Source: a bacterium
Lineage (GTDB): Bacteria > UBP6 > JAFGXH01
DNA length: 33,354 bases
Direction: 5' to 3'
Assembly (NCBI GenBank): GCA_027064085.1
Contig: JAMOQH010000149.1
Location: 1-33,354, forward strand
In this document: positions 17,030 through 28,256 of the stretch, in pieces
Layout: each line of letters opens with the position of its first letter
How positions within the stretch are numbered: position 1 is the first letter of the stretch
Translations under genes and position numbers: made by a program
Notes under the pieces: model-generated
Databases searched by the model: none
What the model saw: the letters and a program-made list of their open reading frames with translations, nothing else
What the model was told of the DNA's origin: nothing

Positions 17030-17530
17030 ATGAAAAAAGGATTATCTCTTTATTCGCAAGAGGCTGTCATCCTATTTGTTTTGTGGTTAGGGCTAACAAG
17101 TTCATTAAATAGACAGGAGCTTATTATTGGAATTTTGATTTCGATTGTCATTCCTTTTTTAACTCCATATCCACTAAGCGATATGGGGCTTAAGTGGCTA
17201 TCTCCCAAAAGGATTTTAGGAGTAGTGCTGTACTTACTTGTATTTTTAAAGGCATTATTTATTGCAAATATTGATGTTGCTAAAAGAGTACTTTCTCCTA
17301 GTTTAAATATTAATCCAGGTATTGTTAAAATCAAGACAAGCTTAAAAACAGATGTTGGTAAAATGTTACTTGCAAACTCAATAACTTTAACTCCAGGTAC
17401 TTTAACTGTAGATATTAGAGATGAATACCTTTATATACATTGGATTGATGTAGAAGTTAAGGATATCGAGAAAGCAACTAAGATTATTGCAGGTGATTTT
17501 GAAAACCTTATTAAGGGTATTGTAGAATGA
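17030..17530 (+). CDS. mrpE: MrpE-like antiporter subunit (MbxA/MbhA)
   Basis: The first gene of the complex, 166 residues. It has two or three N-terminal membrane helices, including 'VLYLLVFLKALFIANIDVAKRVL'-type residues at about 63-85. The MrpE family region follows ('PGIVKIKTSLKTDVGKMLLANSITLTPGTL', about 104-133), ending in a cytoplasmic 'YIHWIDV' segment. MrpE is a small subunit of Na+/H+ antiporter modules; in Mbh and Mbx complexes it belongs to the sodium-translocating part. AGGAGG lies just before the ATG. The stop overlaps the next start (ATGA), as do several junctions in this operon. Identification as part of a redox complex rests on the downstream genes. Confidence 0.93.
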   Translation: MKKGLSLYSQEAVILFVLWLGLTSSLNRQELIIGILISIVIPFLTPYPLSDMGLKWLSPKRILGVVLYLLVFLKALFIANIDVAKRVLSPSLNINPGIVKIKTSLKTDVGKMLLANSITLTPGTLTVDIRDEYLYIHWIDVEVKDIEKATKIIAGDFENLIKGIVE

Positions 17531-17787
17531 ATGAAATGGTATTTTTAATTTTTATAGGTGGAATAGTCTTAGCCATTTTCTTGGCATTTATAAGGCTATT
17601 AAAGGGACCTAGCGTTCCTGATAGAGCAGTAGCATTAGATGCATTAACCACAATTACAACGGCTTTAATGGTTTTGCTAGCTCTTTACATGAAAAGAGGC
17701 ATATTTTTAGATGTTGCTTTAACTTATTCTATAATAGGTTTTATTGGAGTATTATCGCTTGCCAAATTCTTTGAAGGGGGTAAATGA
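17527..17787 (+). CDS. mrpF: MrpF-like antiporter subunit (MbxB/MbhB)
   Basis: An 86-residue, three-helix membrane protein. It has the MrpF/MnhF signature 'RLLKGPSVPDRAVALDALTT' at about residues 23-42, followed by helices ending in 'TYSIIGFIGVLSLAKFFEGG'. MrpF is a small core subunit of the Mrp Na+/H+ antiporter and of the ion-translocating module of Mbh/Mbx complexes. It overlaps the MrpE gene by four bases at the start and the MrpG gene by four bases at the end, typical of tight translational coupling for subunits needed in equal amounts. The length is normal for the family. Confidence 0.94.
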   Translation: MNEMVFLIFIGGIVLAIFLAFIRLLKGPSVPDRAVALDALTTITTALMVLLALYMKRGIFLDVALTYSIIGFIGVLSLAKFFEGGK

Positions 17788-18125
17788 TGGAATATGCTGG
17801 ATTAATATTCGTTTCTATTGGAGTTTTATTTTTGATATTAGGTGCCTTGGGTATTCTTAGGTTTCCTGATTTATTTAATAGAATGCAAGCGGGTACTAAG
17901 GCGACTACTTTTGGTGCGATATTTTCAATTATGGGTGTTGGTTTTCTTGAACCTTCATGGTTGCCTAAAACTTTTATAATTGTGTTGTTTATATTATTAT
18001 CCAATCCAATTAGCAGTCATGCTCTTGCTAGGGCTGCATACAGAAAAGAAAGTAGGCTATGGAAAGATACAGTGGTTGATGAATATGCTGATGTTTTTAA
18101 AACTGATAAAAAGGGGGATGAATAA
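17784..18125 (+). CDS. mrpG: MrpG-like antiporter subunit (MbxC/MbhC)
   Basis: A 113-residue membrane protein of the MrpG/MnhG family, with three predicted helices. The signature 'LGALGILRFPDLFNRMQAGTKATTFG' lies at about residues 20-45, then 'NPISSHALARAAYR' near residues 73-86. The hydrophilic C-terminus ends in acidic and Lys-rich residues. It completes the E-F-G trio that opens both Mrp antiporter and Mbh/Mbx operons. It overlaps mrpF by four bases, and its stop directly abuts the next ATG without a gap. The AGGGGG-like purine stretch near its end probably serves as ribosome-binding site for the next gene. Confidence 0.94.
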   Translation: MMEYAGLIFVSIGVLFLILGALGILRFPDLFNRMQAGTKATTFGAIFSIMGVGFLEPSWLPKTFIIVLFILLSNPISSHALARAAYRKESRLWKDTVVDEYADVFKTDKKGDE

Positions 18126-18371
18126 ATGGTATTAATGCTCTTACAAATCTTTCTTCTGATTTTAATGCTTATTGCAGCGATATTTACTGTTGCCTATAAA
18201 GACTTAATGAACTCAGTAATTGTTTCTGGATTTATAAGTTTAGGTGCGAGTTTATTGTTTTATTTTTTACAAGCACCAGATGTTGCGTTAACAGAAGCGG
18301 CAATAGGAACAGGTTTAACTACTTATATATTTGTTGTAACTATCCGTAAAACAGAAAGGATGGAAAAATGA
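18126..18371 (+). CDS. MbhD/MbxD-like membrane subunit (DUF4040, MrpA C-terminal type)
   Basis: An 81-residue protein with two to three membrane helices. It carries the MbhD motif 'LQAPDVALTEAAIGTGLTTYIFV' region at about residues 49-71. This piece corresponds to part of the C-terminus of the large MrpA subunit; in Mbh/Mbx operons it is a separate small gene, as here. A full MrpA is absent, which separates this operon from a plain Mrp antiporter and supports a redox-linked complex. The next gene overlaps by four bases. Confidence 0.9.
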   Translation: MVLMLLQIFLLILMLIAAIFTVAYKDLMNSVIVSGFISLGASLLFYFLQAPDVALTEAAIGTGLTTYIFVVTIRKTERMEK

Positions 18372-19111
18372 AAAAAATAATAGCAACGCTGATACTTTTA
18401 GTTTTTACATTTTATACTTATAACACAATAAAAGGTTTTAGGTTTGGACATGACTTTTTGAATGCAAAAACTAATAATAAGAAAATTTCACAAAAAATAG
18501 AGCCTGCAGGTAAACATTATTTGGAAAATAATAAACTTGAAAACAATGCTTCAAATGTTGTTACATCAATTGTCGTCTCCTATAGAGGGTTTGATACTCT
18601 TGGTGAAGTTACTGTGCTGTTTTTAGCCGCAACTGGCTTAGGGGTAATTTTAACTCTTACAAAAAAAGAAGATGACGATGAAAATGAAAATGATAGTTCT
18701 GAAGGAGAGCCTAGCTTAATTGTTAAAACGGCATCAAGGATTTTATTTCCTTTGATTTTTATTTTTGGTGCATATGTGTTCATTCATGGTCACTTAACTC
18801 CGGGTGGAGGTTTTCAAGGTGGTACAATTATTGCATCTGCATATTTAATGATGTTTCTAAGTTATAGTAATTTTAAAATTAATCATTCAATATTTAAATC
18901 AATTGAAAGCATGAGTGGGTTAACCTTTATAAGTATTGGCCTTGTTGGATTAATCGGTTTTGGGATTTTTTTAAAATTAAATTTAATACCAATGGGTGTA
19001 TTTAACACTCTTTTTAGTGCGGGGCTAATTCCAATTGTATATATTATTGTTGGTTTTAAAGTAGGCAGTGAATTAACGGCTGTGGTAGATAGTTATAGGG
19101 AGAATTGGTAA
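18368..19111 (+). CDS. Fusion of MbhE-like and MrpB (MbhF)-like membrane subunits
   Basis: A 247-residue protein that joins two subunits. The N-terminal third (1-100) has one helix, a hydrophilic stretch and 'SYRGFDTLGEVTVLFLAATG', matching the MbhE/MrpA-end type. A highly acidic linker (about 100-113, nearly all Asp/Glu/Asn) follows. Residues 117-247 are MrpB/MnhB-like, with 'RILFPLIFIFGAYVFIHGHLTPGGGFQGG' near 125-153 and three further helices. In Pyrococcus Mbh these are separate genes E and F, whereas the Mbx nomenclature has no separate E, consistent with a joined form. The stop overlaps the next ATG (TAATG). It belongs to the ion-translocating module. Confidence 0.88.
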   Translation: MKKIIATLILLVFTFYTYNTIKGFRFGHDFLNAKTNNKKISQKIEPAGKHYLENNKLENNASNVVTSIVVSYRGFDTLGEVTVLFLAATGLGVILTLTKKEDDDENENDSSEGEPSLIVKTASRILFPLIFIFGAYVFIHGHLTPGGGFQGGTIIASAYLMMFLSYSNFKINHSIFKSIESMSGLTFISIGLVGLIGFGIFLKLNLIPMGVFNTLFSAGLIPIVYIIVGFKVGSELTAVVDSYRENW

Positions 19112-19479
19112 TGAGTTGGGTTGAAACAGTTTACAATTACTCCTATTTTGTAGGAGCTTTTGGGCTTATTATGATAGGTTTATATGCCGTAATGGTAAAG
19201 ACAAATCTTATCAAAATTTTAATAGGAATAAATTTAATTGATGTTGGTGTTAATATTTTTTTAGTATCTTTAGGTTATATAAAGGGTAAAGGTGCTCCGA
19301 TATTTTCAAATGCTAGTGTTACACCTGCAAATTCAATTGATCCTATTCCACAAGCATTAGTGCTTACCGCAATTGTTATAGGTGTCGCAGTAACGGCATT
19401 GTCGTTATCAGTAATTATAAAATTATATCAACACTATAAAACTCTTGATATATCTAAAATTAGGGAGATGAGATGGTAG
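19111..19479 (+). CDS. mrpC: MrpC-like (NuoK-related) antiporter subunit (MbxG/MbhG)
   Basis: A 122-residue, three-helix protein of the MrpC/NuoK family. The signature 'GLIMIGLYAVMVKTNLIKILIGINLIDVGVN' spans about residues 16-46, and 'DPIPQALVLTAIVIGVAVTALSL' lies near 78-100. An upstream TTG at 19105 opens the same frame, but the ATG at 19111 overlaps the preceding stop as TAATG and has AGGGAG upstream, so I choose it. NuoK-like subunits pair with the large antiporter subunits to form the proton or sodium path. The next gene (MrpD) begins seven bases before this stop. Confidence 0.93.
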   Translation: MSWVETVYNYSYFVGAFGLIMIGLYAVMVKTNLIKILIGINLIDVGVNIFLVSLGYIKGKGAPIFSNASVTPANSIDPIPQALVLTAIVIGVAVTALSLSVIIKLYQHYKTLDISKIREMRW

Positions 19480-20960
19480 ATTATGCAATTTTACTTATAG
19501 CACTGCCTCTTTTTGCTGCTTTTCTAATACCTCTAGTGGCAATGGTAAATAAAAATTGGCCTAAATATATTCCAATTTTAGTTACAGCATTTAACTCAGT
19601 GTTATCAATAAATTTATTATTATATTTAAATGCTCATAACGGAACGCCTTTTATTGTTAAAATTGGTGGGTTTATACCTCCTTTTGGTATTAACTTATTT
19701 ATTGGCTATCTAGCTATAATATTACTAATGTTAATTTCATTTGTCGGTTTAATGATTTCGTTATATACCATCAATACCGTTAAAGATGCAGAAAGTCGTT
19801 ATTATATGTTATTTATTTTACTCCTTATGGGAGTTACAGGGCTTGTCATAACAGGTGATTTATTTAACATGTTTGTATTTTTAGAAATAACTAGTATTTC
19901 AGCATATTCACTAACTGCATATAAAAGAGATGGTTTAAGTTTAGAAGCATCAATGAAGTACATTCTTATTGGTTCCCTTGCTTCTGTTTTTGTGTTAATA
20001 GGAATAGGAGTTATTTATTATTCAACTCACACATTGAATATTGCAGATATTTCTAATCATATAAATACTGTTCCTAAATATATTAAAATGTTCTCACTAT
20101 CAATGCTTTTGATTGGCTTAGCAATAGAAGCAGAATTATTTCCAGTAAATGGATGGGTACCTGATGTGTATCAAGCTTCTCCAACACCTGTAACAACTAT
20201 TTTTAGTTCAATTGTTGTGAAAGCAACTATTTATGTGTTTTTTAGAGTTTTATTTACTGTTTTTAGGGCAGATTTAACTGTTATGAATTTTGTAATGGGG
20301 CTTGGAGTGATAACATTATTGATTGGTGAAATTTCCGCATTAAAACAAGTAAATATAAAAAGAATGCTTGCGTATTCTTCAATTGGTCAAGTTGGATTAA
20401 TTGTAATTGCAATTTCTTCGTATAGTAGTATGGGGGTTGCTGGTGGTATTTATCAAATGATAAATCATGCAATTTTTAAAGGTATTTTATTCTTAGGTAC
20501 GGCCTATATGATAACTTCAGTATCTGGCACTGGTAAAATATCAGATTTAAAGGGAATTGCACAAAAAATGCCAATATCTTCTTTTATTGTGTCATTTAGT
20601 ATTATTGCATTGCTAGGAGTACCACCGTTAACGGGCTTTTGGGCTAAAATGATGATTTTGTCATCTGTAATGTCAAGTGGACACCAGATAATTGTTGCAT
20701 TAATTTTGTTTGCAACTGTTGTTGAAGCTGTTTACTACTTAAAATTTATTGCTGTAATTTATGATAGTAGTGAAATAACCAATAGCTTTAAATCAACAAT
20801 TAAATTTAATAAAATTGTTCCTATTGTTTTATTTGCACTTACAATCATACTATTTAGTGTTGTTCCTCAATTCTTGGTTAAATTTCAAGATGTTTTATTG
20901 AAAGCGGCAAATGAATTAACAAATGTTAGTTCTTATATTTCAATTGTATTAGGTAGTTAA
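19473..20960 (+). CDS. mrpD: MrpD-like antiporter subunit (MbxH/MbhH; NuoL/M/N family)
   Basis: A 495-residue protein with about 14 membrane helices, the first of two large antiporter subunits in the operon. Motifs of the proton-translocating NuoL/M/N family are seen: the helix-5 glutamate E138 in 'FVFLEITSISAYSL', 'PVNGWVPDVYQASPTPVT', the helix-7 lysine K250 in 'IVVKATIYV', 'KRMLAYSSIGQVG' and 'INHAIFKGILFL' with its His. The length matches MrpD (about 490-500). All charged residues normally needed for ion movement appear intact. It overlaps the MrpC-like gene by seven bases and is followed after nine bases by the second antiporter-like subunit. Confidence 0.95.
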   Translation: MVDYAILLIALPLFAAFLIPLVAMVNKNWPKYIPILVTAFNSVLSINLLLYLNAHNGTPFIVKIGGFIPPFGINLFIGYLAIILLMLISFVGLMISLYTINTVKDAESRYYMLFILLLMGVTGLVITGDLFNMFVFLEITSISAYSLTAYKRDGLSLEASMKYILIGSLASVFVLIGIGVIYYSTHTLNIADISNHINTVPKYIKMFSLSMLLIGLAIEAELFPVNGWVPDVYQASPTPVTTIFSSIVVKATIYVFFRVLFTVFRADLTVMNFVMGLGVITLLIGEISALKQVNIKRMLAYSSIGQVGLIVIAISSYSSMGVAGGIYQMINHAIFKGILFLGTAYMITSVSGTGKISDLKGIAQKMPISSFIVSFSIIALLGVPPLTGFWAKMMILSSVMSSGHQIIVALILFATVVEAVYYLKFIAVIYDSSEITNSFKSTIKFNKIVPIVLFALTIILFSVVPQFLVKFQDVLLKAANELTNVSSYISIVLGS

Positions 20961-20969
20961 GGAGTCAAT

Positions 20970-22838
20970 GTGAATGTTTTAAGAACTATTGCTTTGATAT
21001 TAAGCTTGGGCTTTTTATCATCTATATTGTTTTATAAAATTAGAGAATTAAGAAATCTTTCAATAATTGCATCGTTATCTGTTGCTTTAGGGTTTGTAAT
21101 AAAATTTTTTGGTATATATACTGGAATAAAAAGAGCTTTTTCTTATAAAGACTTATTTTATTTTAAATTTGATGCTTTTTCTAACTTTTTTGTGGTTTTA
21201 ATACTTGGGGTAGGGCTTTTAGCTATTCTTGCATCATGGAATTACATGAAAGAAAAAAAAGGTGAAACATTTTTCTATGTTTTCTTTATGCTAACTATTT
21301 TAGGAATGGTTGGATTAGTGTATTCAAGAGATATGTTATCGTTTTTTATTGGTTGGGAAGTAATGACCATGGGTTCATTTTTAGTTATTCTTCAAAGTAA
21401 TGAAAAGGATAGATTTAAGTTTGCATTGAGGTATTTTATAATTAGTTTGATTGGAGCTTATTCACTATTATGGTCTATGTTTATTATCTATAATAAAGTA
21501 CATAGCTTTAAATTTTCTGCATTCAATTCATCAGTTTTTACAAAGGGAGAATTAACAACTTTACTTATAACTATTTCCATAGGCTTTCTAATAAAAGCTG
21601 CAATTATGCCTTTTCATACTTGGGCATCTGGGGCATATAGCCGTTCACCCTTAACTTTTACGGCATTCTTTTCTGGTGCAATGAGTAAAATGGGAATTTA
21701 TGGGCTGTTTATCTTTTTATATGGAAGTATTGGGCTTTCTGCAATATATAAAACTGGTTATAATGAATTCTTTCAAACATCATATTTTCAATATACTTTA
21801 GTTTGGTTAGGTGTTATTACTGCATTTCTTGGGACATTAAGAGCGATACTGTCTGAAGACATAAGAGTAATGCTTGCATATTCATCTGTAGGGCAATTAG
21901 GTTACATGCTTATTGGTATAGGATTAGGCTCTACTCTTGGATTAACTGCAACATTATTTCATGTTGTAACTCACGGATTGTTTAAAACCTCTTTATTTAT
22001 AGTAGTTGCTGCAATTATTCATAGAACTGGTAAAACAAAATTTCACGAATTGGGTGGCTTAATTAACAATATGCCTATTGCTTTTATTGCAACATTAATT
22101 TCAATTATAACTCTTGCGGGTATTCCTCCATTAGGTGGTTTTGCAACAAAATGGTTGCTATATGAGGCTATGATAGAAAAGAGAATGTTTTTTGCAACTG
22201 CAATTACAATGTTAGCAAGTATTGGAGCTTTTTTATATGCTTACAGGTTAATACAAAACTTATTTTTAGGTCAAAGAAAATTAGAACATGATGATGTTAA
22301 ACCTGCACCATTAACTATGCAAATTGCAATGCTCATTCCTGCTTTAGGTATGGTGTTTTTAGGTTTCTTTCCTAATTTATTAATAAAATATACCAATTTA
22401 TTTATAGAACTAATAAATATTGACTTTTTTAAATTAGGTGTTAAAGTAACTGATACAGCTTTTACTAATTCTTATGGGTATTGGAATGCTTTTTATTTGG
22501 GTTCTGCTGTTGTTATAATATTTATTGTTTCAACAATTTACTACAATCTTCAAAGAAGAGCTAAAATTTATAAAATTGGGCAGTTAGATATTTATACTGC
22601 TGGAGAGTATGTTACTAGAGAAACTCCTCTAAATTATTCATTTAATTTTTATGGTTTTATTTTTGATTCATTAAAACCCGCTATTAAATACAGTGTGACT
22701 AATTTTATAACAAGGATTTCAAAAGAGTTTATTGCCTTGTCTGATTTTGTGAGAAGAATATATACTGGAAATGGCCAACATTATGCTATTTTTACAATGA
22801 TTTTTACAATAATTACTTTAATATACTTTTTATCTTAG
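20970..22838 (+). CDS. Second large antiporter subunit (MbxH'-like; NuoL/HyfB family)
   Basis: A 622-residue membrane protein starting at GTG with GGAG five bases upstream; an ATG two bases earlier runs straight into a stop. Family motifs include the key glutamate E130 in 'FFIGWEVMTMGSF', 'MPFHTWASGAYSRSP', 'SGAMSKMGIYG', 'VMLAYSSVGQLGYM' and 'HVVTHGLFKTSLF'. The C-terminal extension past about residue 500 includes further helices, as in NuoL. Mbh hydrogenase has only one large antiporter subunit. A second one here matches the H' of Mbx and would add a second ion path, so more ions could be moved per electron pair. It is followed eight bases later by the NuoH-like gene. Confidence 0.92.
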   Translation: MNVLRTIALILSLGFLSSILFYKIRELRNLSIIASLSVALGFVIKFFGIYTGIKRAFSYKDLFYFKFDAFSNFFVVLILGVGLLAILASWNYMKEKKGETFFYVFFMLTILGMVGLVYSRDMLSFFIGWEVMTMGSFLVILQSNEKDRFKFALRYFIISLIGAYSLLWSMFIIYNKVHSFKFSAFNSSVFTKGELTTLLITISIGFLIKAAIMPFHTWASGAYSRSPLTFTAFFSGAMSKMGIYGLFIFLYGSIGLSAIYKTGYNEFFQTSYFQYTLVWLGVITAFLGTLRAILSEDIRVMLAYSSVGQLGYMLIGIGLGSTLGLTATLFHVVTHGLFKTSLFIVVAAIIHRTGKTKFHELGGLINNMPIAFIATLISIITLAGIPPLGGFATKWLLYEAMIEKRMFFATAITMLASIGAFLYAYRLIQNLFLGQRKLEHDDVKPAPLTMQIAMLIPALGMVFLGFFPNLLIKYTNLFIELINIDFFKLGVKVTDTAFTNSYGYWNAFYLGSAVVIIFIVSTIYYNLQRRAKIYKIGQLDIYTAGEYVTRETPLNYSFNFYGFIFDSLKPAIKYSVTNFITRISKEFIALSDFVRRIYTGNGQHYAIFTMIFTIITLIYFLS

Positions 22839-22846
22839 GAGAATAG

Positions 22847-23755
22847 ATGAGTACTGATTCAATGTATCGTCTTTTAGTAACGATTGCTGTTATATTAGGA
22901 AGCATAATATATGGTTTCTTTATTAATTCTTTAGCAAGAAGAATAACTGCAAGAGTACAAAATAGAATGGGGCCACCTTTAAAGCAGCCGTTTATTGATG
23001 TAATAAAATTATATAGTAAAAGAACTTTTGTTACTCATGGCATAATGCAAACACTTGGGCCTATATTAATGTTAACAGGTATTATTTCAACTTTAATATT
23101 AATACCTTATGGTAAAGGATATTTAACATTATATAGTTCAAATGGTGATTTAATAACTATTTTATATATTATGACATTTGGACAGTTGGCAATGGCACTT
23201 GCTGTAGGGCAAGCTGGTAATCCTTATGGAACAATTGGTGTAGCAAGAGGATTAACTAGAATGTTTGGTTATGAATTACCATTGATTTTAGCATTAATAT
23301 CTTTAATTGCTTTAAACCATTCTGCTGATGTAAATGTTATTATTGCTAATCAGCATGGAGGTATTGCAAATTGGAATGCATTTAGACATCCTTTTGTTGG
23401 AATTACTGCATTGTTGGCAATGTTAGGAATGATGAGTTATCAACCCTTTGATAATGCATCAGCTCCTGCCGAAGTTGCAAGTGGACCAATTACTGAGTTT
23501 GGTGGTAAATTTATGGCAATAATGATGACTACAAATGCTATGTTTGTAGTTGCTAAATTGGCATTATTGGTTGATTTATTTTTTGGTGGAGCAAGTAATA
23601 TATTTATACTTGCTTTAAAAATATTTTTATTATATTTATACCCTCTTTTTGTTGGGCTCGTTTTTCCAAGATTTGCAATGGAAGATACCTTTTTGTTTTT
23701 CTGGAAATGGCCTACTCTAATAGGATTTATTGGTTTGGCAATAGCAATTTTTTAA
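22847..23755 (+). CDS. NuoH-like membrane anchor subunit (MbxM)
   Basis: A 302-residue protein with about eight membrane helices, of the NuoH/complex I subunit 1/MbhM family. 'RRITARVQNRMGPPLKQPFIDVIKLY' (about 25-50) contains the family's 'RxQNRxGP' loop, and 'NPYGTIGVARGLTRMFGYELPL' and 'PFDNASAPAEVASGPITEFGGK' carry the conserved acidic loops facing the redox arm. This subunit couples electron transfer to the antiporter modules. Its place before the NuoB-like gene, rather than after the catalytic subunit, follows the Mbx order; in Pyrococcus Mbh the M gene comes near the end. AGGAG lies just before the ATG. Confidence 0.94.
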   Translation: MSTDSMYRLLVTIAVILGSIIYGFFINSLARRITARVQNRMGPPLKQPFIDVIKLYSKRTFVTHGIMQTLGPILMLTGIISTLILIPYGKGYLTLYSSNGDLITILYIMTFGQLAMALAVGQAGNPYGTIGVARGLTRMFGYELPLILALISLIALNHSADVNVIIANQHGGIANWNAFRHPFVGITALLAMLGMMSYQPFDNASAPAEVASGPITEFGGKFMAIMMTTNAMFVVAKLALLVDLFFGGASNIFILALKIFLLYLYPLFVGLVFPRFAMEDTFLFFWKWPTLIGFIGLAIAIF

Positions 23756-23773
23756 AATAATGGAGTATCCAAT

Positions 23774-24355
23774 ATGGATGATTTAAAAAGACCAACGTTA
23801 GATTCAGATTTTACTTGTGATATGGCCTTTAATAAAATAACTAAATGGGCTCAAAAAAATTCTTTATGGTTACTTGCTTATGGTACGGGTTGTGGAGCAA
23901 TTGAACTTTCTCCAACAATGACATCAAGATATGATTGGTCTAGATTAGGTATAAGAGGTTCTGCAACCCCTCGTCAGGCAGATTTACTGCTGATAACTGG
24001 TTATTTATCTACGAAAACATTAAAAAGAGTGATTAGAAGTTATGAGCAAATGCAAGACCCTAAGTATGTGATTGGATTTGGTTCATGTACAATAAATGGT
24101 GGAATGTACTATGATTCTTATAATACAATTAAGCAATTAGATTTATATATACCTGTAGATGTGTATATTAATGGTTGTATGCCACGTCCAGAAGCTGTAT
24201 TATCCGGATTAGCATATTTAAAAGATAAAATTGGTGATAAAAAAGCTGATGGTTGGATTAAATATAAGCAAAACTTTGAGTGGTATAGGGAAAATCAGAA
24301 AAAAATTCTCAAAAGTTTTAATGGTGATAATATGCCAGACAAGTATAATTGGTAG
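23774..24355 (+). CDS. NuoB-like small electron-transfer subunit (MbxJ)
   Basis: A 193-residue soluble subunit of the NuoB / NiFe-hydrogenase small-subunit family that should hold the [4Fe-4S] cluster nearest the catalytic subunit. Motifs: 'YGTGCGAIELSP' (C40), 'IGFGSCTINGGMY' (C105) and 'YINGCMPRPEAVLSGL' (C135). NuoB has two adjacent Cys at the first motif and hydrogenases have CxxC; here Gly41 stands where a second Cys is expected, so only three ligands remain (C15 lies in an unrelated segment). Three-Cys binding would leave one iron open, as reported for the sulfane reductase MBS, which I recall as having a site-differentiated cluster. The start has GGAG upstream. Confidence 0.93.
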   Translation: MDDLKRPTLDSDFTCDMAFNKITKWAQKNSLWLLAYGTGCGAIELSPTMTSRYDWSRLGIRGSATPRQADLLLITGYLSTKTLKRVIRSYEQMQDPKYVIGFGSCTINGGMYYDSYNTIKQLDLYIPVDVYINGCMPRPEAVLSGLAYLKDKIGDKKADGWIKYKQNFEWYRENQKKILKSFNGDNMPDKYNW

Positions 24356-24363
24356 GAGAAATT

Positions 24364-24918
24364 ATGGGATTTTCGAAATTAACTGAAACAAAAGTTCTCC
24401 TTAAGCAATATTTTAAGGATATTATATCCATAGAAGAAGGTGGAGAGCAAAGACTAATTATAGATTTACAGAGTAAAGATATTACTTCTATGATTAATCA
24501 TTTAAAAGACTTTATGGACTTTAAGCATTTGAGTATGATTTCATGTGTTGATTGGCCTGAAGAAAATAAATTTGAGATTGTTTACATATTAACATCATAT
24601 AGTAAAAATATTGTTTTAATGCTTAAAACTAAAATAGACAGAAAAAATCCAAAATTACAGTCAATAATGAGCTTATGGCCACAAGCTGTAACTTATGAAA
24701 TTGAACTTAATGAAATGTTTGGAGTCTTCTTTGAAGGAAATGATAGAATGGGAGAAGAATTTATTCTTGAAGATTGGGATGATATTCCTCCAATGAGAAG
24801 GGATTTTGATAGTTTAGAGTATGCAAATAAGAATTTTAAATTTAGAGATGAAAGAAAAGATAAAAAAATAATAAGAGAATTTATCTCCGAACATTATGAT
24901 GAATGGAGGAAAAAATAA
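24364..24918 (+). CDS. NuoC-like (30-kDa) subunit (MbxK)
   Basis: A 184-residue soluble subunit of the complex I 30-kDa / NuoC family. The conserved C-terminal motif region reads 'EIELNEMFGVFFEGN' then 'EFILEDWDDIPPMRRDF' (about 110-150), matching the family's E-R-E-x-x-D-x-x-G-I and L-x-x-x-P-x-R-x-D-F pattern in relaxed form. It braces the catalytic subunit and carries no cofactor in the family. The frame also opens at a TTG (24349) inside the NuoB-like gene, but the ATG at 24364 has TAGGAG eight bases upstream and avoids the overlap, so I choose it. The next gene's ATG follows the stop directly. Confidence 0.92.
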   Translation: MGFSKLTETKVLLKQYFKDIISIEEGGEQRLIIDLQSKDITSMINHLKDFMDFKHLSMISCVDWPEENKFEIVYILTSYSKNIVLMLKTKIDRKNPKLQSIMSLWPQAVTYEIELNEMFGVFFEGNDRMGEEFILEDWDDIPPMRRDFDSLEYANKNFKFRDERKDKKIIREFISEHYDEWRKK

Positions 24919-26016
24919 ATGAAAACGACTAAACTTTATTTAGGTCCTCAGCATCCAGGAATTACTGGAAATATGATGATTGAACTTGATGTAGAAGGTA
25001 ACAAAATACTTAAATCCAAAACACATGTTGGTTATTTGCATAGAGGCTTTGAAAAATTAATGGAAAGAAGAACATATATTCAGAGTTTTCCTATTGTATG
25101 TAGAATCTGTGTTCCAGAACCCGATGTTAATGAAAATAACTATGCAAGAGCTGTAGAAAAGCTCTCGGGTTTAGAAGTTCCAGAAAGAGCCAAGTGGATA
25201 AGAACTATGGTTCTTGAGATGGCGAGATTACAATCTTATTTATTATGGATGGGTGGTCAATCAGGAAGTATGGGATTGTATACTATGCCACAGTGGACTA
25301 TTGGAGATAGAGATTACTTACTTGATAGATTTGAAGAATTAACTGGTGGTAGAGTTTATCATCTATATGTATGGCCAGGAGGAGTAAGGAAAGATTTACC
25401 AATAGGCTTTAAAACAAGAATGCTTGATTTGATGGATTATTTAGAATCTAGAATGAAGGATTATACTAAGTTAATGTTTGAAAATGCTATCTTTAAAAAA
25501 AGAGCAATTGGAACGGGAGTAATTCCTAAAGACAAAGCATTAGAGTGGGGAGTTGTTGGCCCTGTGTTGAGAGGAACAGGTATTAAACATGATGTTAGAA
25601 TAGATGAGCCTTATGAGATATATGATAAATTAGAATTTGAAGTACCAACTTACGAAGGTGGAGATATTTACTCTAGAGCATTGGTAAGAAAATTTGAATT
25701 TATGCAAAGTATTTCAATAATCAGGCAGATAATGGACAAGATACCGGAAGGACCTATTTATAACAGAATACCAAATCCATTTAAATGGAAAATTCCTAAA
25801 GGTTATACCTATGTTAAACTAGAATCATCAAGAGGAGAATTCGGCTATTTTATGGCATCTGATGGTAGTGAGAAATTAAGGCGAGTTAATGTTAGAGGTC
25901 CAGCCTATGTTCATGGGATTTCTCTTCTAGAAAAAATATTACCTGGTTCAAGGTTAGGAGATGTTTCAACTATTCTTAATTCATTGGGAGTTTGTCCCCC
26001 TGAAATGGAAAGATAA
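24919..26016 (+). CDS. NuoD-like catalytic large subunit lacking a full NiFe site (MbxL-like)
   Basis: A 365-residue subunit of the NuoD / group 4 NiFe-hydrogenase large-subunit family. It opens with 'YLGPQHPGITGNMMIELD' and 'THVGYLHRGFEKLMERRTY', typical of the family. True hydrogenases bind NiFe through an N-terminal RxCGxC and a C-terminal DPCxxC. Here the first motif reads 'IVCRIC' (C61, C64), with Gly replaced by Arg. The second reads 'SLGVCPPEMER', keeping C359 but having Glu362 where the last Cys should be. The NiFe centre therefore cannot form as in hydrogenases. Complex I NuoD has none of these Cys, so this is the intermediate Mbx/Mbs type. No hydrogenase maturation genes are nearby. 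The protein ends directly after the motif, without a cleavable tail. Confidence 0.93.
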   Translation: MKTTKLYLGPQHPGITGNMMIELDVEGNKILKSKTHVGYLHRGFEKLMERRTYIQSFPIVCRICVPEPDVNENNYARAVEKLSGLEVPERAKWIRTMVLEMARLQSYLLWMGGQSGSMGLYTMPQWTIGDRDYLLDRFEELTGGRVYHLYVWPGGVRKDLPIGFKTRMLDLMDYLESRMKDYTKLMFENAIFKKRAIGTGVIPKDKALEWGVVGPVLRGTGIKHDVRIDEPYEIYDKLEFEVPTYEGGDIYSRALVRKFEFMQSISIIRQIMDKIPEGPIYNRIPNPFKWKIPKGYTYVKLESSRGEFGYFMASDGSEKLRRVNVRGPAYVHGISLLEKILPGSRLGDVSTILNSLGVCPPEMER

Positions 26017-26027
26017 GGAGTTATTGT

Positions 26028-28256
26028 ATGATTGATATAAAAGGAATTCTCGGACCATTATCTGCTTTAAAATTTTTAGGTAAGGCTCCTCACACCATTG
26101 ATTATCCAAAAGAAACTAAAAAAACAGCAGATAGATATAGAGGTATTCATTACAATGATGTTGAAGCATGTATTGGATGTGGTAGTTGTGGAACAATTTG
26201 TGAAAATGATGCTATTGATATGGTAAATGTTGGTTTTGACCCTAATAAAGCAGATACTGGGTTTAGGCCTGTTGTTGATTATGGTAGATGCTGTTGGTGT
26301 GCTTTATGTGTTGATGTTTGTCCATCAGGCTCTTTATCGTTAACAAAAGATTATGTATATGTTGATGATGACCCTAAGAAATTTTTATATGTGCCAGGAT
26401 TACAAGAATTAGGAAAAGTTAATATTGACTCAACAGATGATTTAAAAGAACTTGCTAAAATAGAGAAAGAAAATAGACCTAAATTAAAAGAAGGTGAAAG
26501 ATCTTGGTATCAAAAAGATAGAACAGAAGGGTTACTAGAATTTAATAGAGTCCCTATGAAAGAACTTCCAGGCAGTACTAGAATAAAAAGTTTTGCAGAA
26601 GTTGTTCTTGGCTATACAGAAGAAGAAGCATTTATGGAGTCTATTAGATGTTTAGGTTGTGGACTTTGTATTTCTGCATGTCCTGATAGAATGCATATTC
26701 CTGATTATATTCAGGCAATTACAGAAAGAGATTATAATAGTAGTGCAAATATTATATATGAAAATAATCCTCTTCCTGAAATGTGTGGTAAAGTTTGTAC
26801 TAGACAATGTGAAACTGCATGTGTTTATCATAATAGAGGTGATGCGGTTGCTATTAGATGGTTAAAAAGATTTACTACAGAGCAATTTGATGATTTTAGA
26901 ACTATCATTAATGCTGAAGTGAAACCATTAAATGGTAAAAAAGTTGGTATTATTGGTGCTGGACCTGCTGGGCTAACTGTAGGATATTACTTAAGGCTTA
27001 GAGGTTATGATGTAACAATTTATGAAGCATTATCAAAAGCTGGTGGTATGACTATGGCTGGTATTCCAAAATACCGTTTTCCACTTGATTCTTTAGATAA
27101 ACAAATTTCATATATGGAAGAAATGGGTGTTAGAATCCATTATAATACAAGAGTAGGCAAAGATATAATGTTTGATGAAATTATGGATACCTATGATGCT
27201 GTATTTATTGGTATTGGTTTCCATGATCCTTATGATTTAGGTTTAAAAGGCGAAAAAGAAGCTAAAAGTGGTGTCATTTCAGCAGTTGAATTACTTAGAA
27301 GAGTAAATTTTGGAGAAAAAGTTGATGTAGGTAAGAAAGTTGCTGTTATTGGTGGTGGTAATGTTGCTATTGATGGAGCTAGAGTATCTAAAAGACTTGG
27401 TAATGTTGATGTAACAATACTTTACAGAAGAAGAGTACAAGATATGCCTGCTGATTGGGAAGAGATAGAGGGTGCTGAAGATGAGGGTGTACATATAGTT
27501 CCACAAGCAATACCTGAAGAAATAATGCTTGATAAAAATGGTAAAGTTACAGGTATTAAATATGTAATGGCAGAAATGGTTGATGATGGAAAAGGTGGAA
27601 GACCTAGACCTAAAAAAATTGAAGGTTCAGAGAAAATTTTACCTATTGATACATTGGTTGGTGCTATTGGACAACAAGCTGATTATAGCTTTTTACCAGA
27701 TGAATATCTATTTAAAACTCAAGATGATGAAAAAAGTGGAAGTAAAAAAGGTATAGATACCTTTTGGGGAAGAATTTTAGTTCATGGTTATAATGAAACT
27801 ACAATGAAAAAAGTATTTTCCGGTGGTGATATGGTAAATAGAACTGCTGATGCTATTTCTGCTATTGCTGATGGTTTAAATGCTGTTAAAGGTATAGATT
27901 TATTTTTACAAGGTGGTAAAGAAACTAAAGTTAATCACTCCGTTACAGAATCTGATTTGGATAAAAACAAATTATTAGATAAGCATTACAAAATGAAGCA
28001 TGAAAATGGTAAGCTTGTTTCTGTTAAGCTTGATTTAAGTGGAAATATTGTAACTGAATCTGTAAAAATTGCCAAAGACCCTGATGAACTTAAAAAAGAT
28101 GTTGAAAAAAAAGAAGTAAATAAATCCACTGACAAAGCCAATAGTAAGGATAAGACAATGTCTTATCCTACTAAAAATACAAATGGAGAAACGAAAAAGG
28201 AAGAAAAAAAATCTAAATCCAAGAAAAAATCTAAAAAGAAGAAAAAGAAAAAATAA
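26028..28256 (+). CDS. Fusion of NuoI-like ferredoxin subunit (MbxN) with an NfnL/GltD-like FAD-NAD(P) oxidoreductase
   Basis: A 742-residue protein joining two electron-transfer units. Residues 1-125 are the MbxN/NuoI-like part, with two 4Fe-4S motifs (C48/51/54/58 and C88/91/94/98). After a linker comes the GltD/NfnL-type part. It has two further Fe-S motifs (C208/211/214/218 and C253/257/261/265), an FAD dinucleotide fold 'GIIGAGPAGLTVGYYL' (about 307-322) and a second nucleotide fold 'VAVIGGGNVAIDGARV' (about 438-453). Arginines in 'LYRRR' (466-469) resemble the NADPH-binding arginines of GltD. The last 55 residues are hydrophilic, and the final stretch is almost pure Lys. The likely role is passing electrons between NAD(P)H or ferredoxin and the membrane complex; the direction is not known. 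It ends the operon. Confidence 0.93.
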   Translation: MIDIKGILGPLSALKFLGKAPHTIDYPKETKKTADRYRGIHYNDVEACIGCGSCGTICENDAIDMVNVGFDPNKADTGFRPVVDYGRCCWCALCVDVCPSGSLSLTKDYVYVDDDPKKFLYVPGLQELGKVNIDSTDDLKELAKIEKENRPKLKEGERSWYQKDRTEGLLEFNRVPMKELPGSTRIKSFAEVVLGYTEEEAFMESIRCLGCGLCISACPDRMHIPDYIQAITERDYNSSANIIYENNPLPEMCGKVCTRQCETACVYHNRGDAVAIRWLKRFTTEQFDDFRTIINAEVKPLNGKKVGIIGAGPAGLTVGYYLRLRGYDVTIYEALSKAGGMTMAGIPKYRFPLDSLDKQISYMEEMGVRIHYNTRVGKDIMFDEIMDTYDAVFIGIGFHDPYDLGLKGEKEAKSGVISAVELLRRVNFGEKVDVGKKVAVIGGGNVAIDGARVSKRLGNVDVTILYRRRVQDMPADWEEIEGAEDEGVHIVPQAIPEEIMLDKNGKVTGIKYVMAEMVDDGKGGRPRPKKIEGSEKILPIDTLVGAIGQQADYSFLPDEYLFKTQDDEKSGSKKGIDTFWGRILVHGYNETTMKKVFSGGDMVNRTADAISAIADGLNAVKGIDLFLQGGKETKVNHSVTESDLDKNKLLDKHYKMKHENGKLVSVKLDLSGNIVTESVKIAKDPDELKKDVEKKEVNKSTDKANSKDKTMSYPTKNTNGETKKEEKKSKSKKKSKKKKKKK

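Follow-up and report, generated by a model that had tools for sequence, protein, structure and literature searches.

The window, i.e. the whole analysed stretch of 33,354 nucleotides (contig JAMOQH010000149.1), contains 13 ORFs on the forward strand between positions 17030 and 28256, located where the initial annotation had placed them; neighbouring ORFs overlap or are separated by gaps of at most 18 bp (Table 1). Profile searches matched each of the 13 to the expected Pfam family, with Fer4 and pyridine-nucleotide oxidoreductase domains in the last gene. The proposal that thirteen contiguous genes encode Mrp-type subunits together with a NuoH-B-C-D-I module was thus confirmed with respect to ORFs, strand and Pfam domains.

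Table 1. Predicted genes of the Mbx/MBS-type cluster in the window and the matches on which their assignment is based.
Predicted product	Position	Strand	Supporting match
MbsA-like (MrpE/MnhE)	17030..17530	+	PF01899, E 2.8e-41
MbsB-like (MrpF)	17527..17787	+	PF04066, E 7.5e-19
MbsC-like (MrpG)	17784..18125	+	PF03334, E 1.6e-24
MbsD-like (MbhD)	18126..18371	+	PF13244, E 5.2e-23
MbsE-like, MbhE and MbhF/MrpB (MnhB) domains in a single ORF	18368..19111	+	PF20501 and PF04039
MbsG-like (NuoK/MrpC)	19105..19479	+	PF00420, E 8.7e-26
MbsH-like antiporter subunit (MrpD type)	19473..20960	+	Proton_antipo_M; best PDB match 6u8y_H, E 7.8e-106 (MbhH, E 4.1e-58)
MbsH'-like second antiporter subunit	20970..22838	+	Proton_antipo_M; best PDB match 6u8y_X (MbsH'), E 4e-82
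MbsM-like (NuoH)	22847..23755	+	Best PDB match 6u8y_M, E 2.9e-42 (MbhM, E 2.8e-22)
MbsJ-like (NuoB)	23774..24355	+	Best PDB match 6u8y_J, E 1.1e-66; J tree 98/99
MbsK-like (NuoC)	24349..24918	+	PF00329, E 5e-29
MbsL-like (NuoD/hydrogenase large subunit fold)	24919..26016	+	Best PDB match 6u8y_L, 361 bits (MbhL, 154 bits); L tree 100/100
MbsN-like NuoI domain and NfnL-type FAD/NAD(P)H domain	26028..28256	+	6u8y_N and NfnL matches; NF010590, 600 bits

As shown in Table 1, the genes are arranged in the order A-B-C-D-EF-G-H-H'-M-J-K-L-N, in which E and F form a single gene and H' is a second antiporter subunit. The Mbx/Mbs order, including the second antiporter subunit, had already been recognized in the initial annotation, and the fusion of MbhE and MbhF adds to it; MbsE has been described as an E+F fusion (PMC8415708), and the Mbs layout is also presented in PMC7684303. 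The same arrangement was observed in many other genomes and, since these are independent, it is not a product of chance. The description of this order as archaeal is true but not exclusively so, as it is common in bacteria too.

For the five core subunits tested (H, H', M, J and L), the best solved match was the MBS complex of P. furiosus (formerly Mbx; 6u8y), with MBH well behind (Table 1). In a tree of 99 L sequences, the window protein, P. furiosus MbsL and 84 other homologues formed a single group (support 100), apart from both the hydrogenases and NuoD. A phylogeny of the NuoD-like (L) and NuoB-like (J) proteins had been suggested as a check of the Mbx/Mbs affiliation. Smaller, careful trees placed L inside the MbsL clade and J inside the MbsJ clade (support values in Table 1), both lying outside MbhL/HycE and NuoD/NuoB. 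The tree references, taken from PDB alignments, were MbsL, MbhL, HycE, Nqo4, NdhH and human NDUFS2, with EchE and the Thermotoga proteins absent.

The proximal cluster of MBS, a [4Fe-4S] cluster that is open and catalytic, is ligated by MbsJ C28, C93 and C123, and C25 is a non-ligand whose mutation is harmless (PMC7684303). The equivalents of the three cluster cysteines in the window J protein (C40, C105 and C135) are invariant across 80 homologues (80/80). The equivalent of C25 is Gly37, a position occupied by a residue other than Cys in 65 of the 80. The cluster loop is short, as in MbsJ, and lacks a fourth Cys; the motif GTGCGAIE contains one Cys, not the two adjacent NuoB cysteines of complex I. 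The L subunit of MBS retains two of the four [NiFe] cysteines, and Nqo4 H38 and Y87, as well as MbhL E21, are absent there (PMC7684303). In the window L protein, two of these cysteines are likewise retained, C64 and C359 (CRICVPEP...CPPEMER in place of the hydrogenase CxxC...CxxC), the positions of the quinone residues His38/Tyr87 (Nqo4) are occupied by T16 and V65, and that of the proton Glu by G17. None of 86 L sequences contains the quinone His, and the Tyr position is Val in all of them (residue roles from PMC7684303).

Lacking the residues for [NiFe] binding, quinone binding and proton reduction, the complex is unlikely to evolve hydrogen or to reduce quinone; an open-cluster reductase is the best fit to the active-site residues of L and J. 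The complex has folds and Nuo-like subunits in common with group 4 [NiFe] hydrogenases (Mbh/Ech) and with ordinary quinone-reducing complex I. Its identity with either of them is nevertheless extremely improbable and, as far as sequence allows, refuted: the proton Glu is gone, along with two of the four [NiFe] cysteines and the quinone His and Tyr, and both groups are excluded by the trees.

The phylogeny of L and J, the gene order, the E+F fusion and the active-site residues all speak strongly for an assignment to Mbx/Mbs and not to Mbh. Neither a catalytic subunit inside the group 4 hydrogenases nor an Mbh gene order was seen. Judging from these features, the complex almost certainly belongs to the Mbx/MBS clade, and it is a fresh bacterial member of an already known, widespread kind.

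P. furiosus MBS and the window complex share 13 subunits in an identical gene set and order, the fused E+F, two antiporter subunits, the three-Cys J cluster and two residual cysteines in L, a subunit with 47% identity between them. The window complex differs in the fusion of N to an NfnL-type flavoprotein, the Gly equivalent of J-C25 and an extra Cys61 in L. The MBX complex of T. maritima is, according to PMC9431562, likewise a 13-subunit bacterial MBS homologue. P. furiosus MBH (6cfw) also possesses an Mrp arm and a NuoH-B-C-D-I module but, unlike the window complex, it has a four-Cys [NiFe] site, separate E and F and one large antiporter subunit, and it is clearly outside the clade.

The extra Cys61, found in bacterial L subunits, is close to the J cluster and might close its open iron. 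The idea of a compensating cysteine, with L-Cys61 appearing where J-C25 is lost (Fisher p 1.8e-4), was dropped, since J-C25 changes just once on the tree. The alignments, read by eye, show that H, H' and M retain the majority of the residues with a proposed role in proton transfer: the equivalents of E138 and K250 in H (H330 is replaced by Q), of E128, K248 and H336 in H', and of D196, E203 and E211 in M (E193 and E104 are replaced by Q and T, respectively).

The last gene had been taken for a plain NuoI; instead, its product combines NuoI with an FAD/NADPH module of NfnL type. This 742-aa fusion protein comprises a NuoI-like part (residues 1 to about 115), an NfnL/GltD-type flavoprotein (residues 173-630) and a Lys-rich tail. 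For the NuoI-like part, MbsN (6u8y_N) outscored any other NuoI chain, and the matches of the flavin part scored above 6u8y_N. Residues 173-630 correspond to an FAD/NAD(P)H domain of NfnL type that carries two further [4Fe-4S] sites and is 36-38% identical to NfnL over the domain, and the best structural matches of an AF2 model of N (mean pLDDT 79) were NfnL 5jca_L and 4ylf_B. The NfnL fold, the Fe-S cysteines and the Arg at FAD N5 are all present in N. The family NF010590 (PRK13984, "putative oxidoreductase"; curated cut-off 946 bits), which has no assigned function, shows the same NuoI+NfnL architecture and, because it covers the whole length of N, this architecture is already represented in a curated library. 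N itself, at 600 bits, is below the cut-off; one of 14 control genomes contained a match above it. No description of an MbxN-flavoprotein fusion was found in the open-access literature.

All 16 Fe-S cysteines, including the eight of NfnL type, and R350 are invariant in the 63 full-length N fusions (63/63). R350 corresponds in the alignment to NfnB Arg187, the residue that forms a hydrogen bond with the bifurcating FAD at N5 (PMC6405883). The FAD/NAD(P)H domain, two [4Fe-4S] sites and N5-Arg are shared with NfnL/NfnB (5jca_L, 4ylf_B) and with the large subunits of StnABC/NfnABC (8oh5, 9bov, 9n5u). Unlike in these systems, the flavin domain of the window is fused to the NuoI subunit of an ion pump and lacks NfnS: no such partner (FAD + [2Fe-2S]) is encoded among the 13 genes or directly adjoining them. 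The second nucleotide (Rossmann) motif of N is YRRR in the window, suggesting an NADPH-type site. In 26 of the 63 fusions this position is acidic, which points to an NADH-type version, and at least six switches between the two motifs were counted on the L tree.

The NuoI-type clusters fit the ferredoxin-linked complex of the initial annotation, but this description is incomplete. Because N is fused to an NfnL-type module, and such fusions are common among the relatives, electron input may include NADPH beside ferredoxin, and the flavin module may serve as an NADPH entry in the bacterial relatives as well. The invariance of the eight NfnL-type cysteines and the N5-FAD Arg, as well as the bifurcating NfnL subunits found as the best structural matches, would even be consistent with a working bifurcating or confurcating flavin, so that the pump itself would split or combine the electrons of NADPH and ferredoxin. 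We consider this improbable: the cluster has no NfnS/[2Fe-2S] partner, retained residues are no proof of bifurcation and the Campylobacterota/Chromatiaceae branch is devoid of the NfnL domain. Equally doubtful is the broader proposal that bacterial Mbx complexes couple such bifurcation or confurcation (NADPH and ferredoxin, at the fused NfnL site) to an Mrp pump with an open-cluster reductase, NAD(H) and NADP(H) versions having arisen several times.

Analysis of the distribution of the complex revealed relatives of the L subunit in at least 563 stretches from named genomes; Desulfurellales, Sulfurovum and Chromatiaceae are represented among the matches listed. The fusion is present in about 60 of 80 sampled loci, NuoI alone was found in 11 Campylobacterota/Chromatiaceae loci and two archaeal loci, and the remaining loci are cut by contig ends; because the sample consists of the 80 best matches to the window, these shares hold for the sample and not for the whole clade. 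The named strains in the sample include Thiocystis minor, Thiorhodococcus mannitoliphagus, Rectinema subterraneum and Tropicimonas isoalkanivorans.

In the 99-sequence L tree, the closest relatives of the window protein come from Ignavibacteriota, Fidelibacterota and Bacteroidota. In two genomes of the window's own family, the sole match was of NuoD type and scored lower (40-42% identity). Other families of the phylum carry a different subtype, whose H and H' are fused where the contig is long enough to show it. A single clade of the window L protein and those of its phylum-mates was rejected by the AU test (p 2e-5), ruling out vertical inheritance of L within the phylum. The GC content of the cluster is 30.8%, compared to about 26% in its flanks. 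The cluster was probably gained by horizontal transfer, independently of those in related families.

The host genome (95% complete) encodes a complex I that includes NuoF and NuoG (on C172), a second Nuo-type complex (on C75), an A6-type [FeFe] hydrogenase and four POR-type matches. Two molybdopterin oxidoreductase genes lie in one region with genes for Fe-S proteins, a multihaem cytochrome and cytochrome b561. A COX1 match proved to be a NorB-type NO reductase, not an oxygen reductase. There is no support for regarding the complex as the main ion pump in a fermenting or sulfur-using anaerobe, since the genome also carries two other complexes of the complex I type, along with the molybdopterin oxidoreductases and the NO reductase. 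The host looks like an anaerobic respirer, with Mbx as one of its three pumps of the complex I family.

The genome, 95% complete, lacks Rnf, yet its four POR-type genes would supply reduced ferredoxin. Together with the FAD/NADPH domain fused to N in most sampled relatives, this fits an Rnf-like, ion-pumping ferredoxin:NADP+ oxidoreductase, with NADP+ as the acceptor at the fused FAD and sulfur as no substrate; PMC6349859 quotes an older account of Pyrococcus Mbx as a ferredoxin:NADP+ oxidoreductase. Such a role is unlikely, though less so than bifurcation. Against it stand the strict conservation of the open three-Cys J cluster and the later finding that Pyrococcus MBS reduces polysulfide (PMC7684303); direct flow from ferredoxin to FAD would also bypass the J cluster, the coupling point to the membrane arm.

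By its sequence, the complex comprises a membrane arm derived from Mrp, an anchor resembling NuoH, and a peripheral arm ending in the three-Cys J cluster. On balance, we lean towards a mechanism in which ferredoxin and NADPH enter at N and sulfane reduction at J drives ion export. Electrons from ferredoxin would be accepted by the NuoI-type clusters and those from NADPH by the fused NfnL-type FAD, and would reach the J cluster through a series of [4Fe-4S] clusters. This cluster would reduce sulfane sulfur (polysulfide or organic polysulfide), driving export of H+/Na+ through H, H' and the Mrp module.

The sulfane-reductase reading is supported by the position of L and J inside the MbsL and MbsJ clades, the five core subunits with 6u8y as the best solved match, the invariant J cysteines of the 80 homologues and the missing quinone His/Tyr; NADPH input is supported by the invariant residues of the 63 fusions and the YRRR motif. 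The relatives in Desulfurellales, Sulfurovum and Chromatiaceae also count in favour of sulfane reduction, as does, indirectly, the rise in transcripts of the 13-subunit MBX of T. maritima with S0 (PMC9431562). No report of bacterial Mbx activity or of a functional assay was found in the literature searched. Several observations count against sulfane reduction coupled to ion export. Adjoining sulfur genes were dropped as a functional clue, as no sulfur-specific gene was detected in the flanks of the window's cluster or among ten neighbour genes from six other loci. The replacements of MbsH H330 and of MbsM E104 and E193, and the possible closure of the open iron by L-Cys61, argue in the same direction. 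Furthermore, sulfur respiration is not known from host groups such as Cloacimonadota and digester Bacteroidales.

It has been proposed that MBS stands between hydrogenases and complex I in evolution; a single hyperthermophilic archaeon is the source of its enzymology. The Mbx/MBS clade is spread over many bacterial phyla, and a fused NADPH-type flavin module is usual in the sampled relatives. The conserved J cysteines and missing quinone residues lead to a sharp prediction, that of a sulfane reductase, and the fused flavin leads to a second, that of NADPH input; cultured hosts among the sampled loci make the bacterial form testable. If the bifurcation reading were true, redox bifurcation and ion pumping would be coupled in a single complex.

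Most bacterial Mbx L subunits (73 of 86) carry an extra cysteine three residues N-terminal of the retained [NiFe]-type cysteine. It adjoins an invariant arginine, which aligns with the arginine near cluster N2 of complex I. The extra L cysteine is found preferentially where the J-subunit cysteine C25 (Pyrococcus MbsJ numbering) has been lost, but this loss maps to the tree as one event only. The coordinates of this residue in the window and of the other features are listed in the table below.

Coordinates of features in the window, its own genome and related loci
Feature	Location	Strand	Remark
L residue Cys61	window 25099-25101	+	extra Cys of bacterial Mbx L subunits
Nucleotide motif, fused flavin domain of N	window 27420-27434	+	also compared in homologous loci
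C-terminal tail of N	window 28050-28256		Lys-rich, low-confidence
Second Nuo-type complex	own genome C75:34808-47750
Two molybdopterin oxidoreductase operons in tandem	own genome C6:8087-20430		PhsA-like first domain
Hint (intein-splicing-like) ORFs	L066:12939-13475; L103:6987-7544		directly 3′ of Mbx cluster

The layout of the cluster varies among relatives. In Campylobacterota and Chromatiaceae (loci L036, L037, L040, L043, L044 and L055) the flavin fusion is absent and gene A is relocated to the cluster end. The antiporter subunits H and H′ appear to form one protein of approximately 970–1090 aa in L052, L053, L059, L062, L064, L065, L067, L070, L071, L075–L079, most of L083–L094, and L096, nearly all of which lie within one large subclade. 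One of the two related genomes with a Hint ORF is a Desulfurellales MAG. The L gene of L034, on a contig labelled Sulfurovum, groups with that of a Saprospiraceae MAG; this contig is possibly misbinned.

The last gene of the second Nuo-type complex encodes a 705-aa protein joining nitrate-reductase-gamma-like, Fe-S and CCG domains, a possible heterodisulfide-reductase-like module. An Fe-S protein, cytochrome b561 and a multihaem cytochrome c accompany the molybdopterin oxidoreductases in their operons.

The C-terminal tail of the fused N protein reads SKSKKKSKKKKKKK. Within the clade, at least six switches have converted the nucleotide motif of the protein's flavin domain from YRRR to an acidic form (E/D) or back, which suggests changes between NADP(H) and NAD(H).
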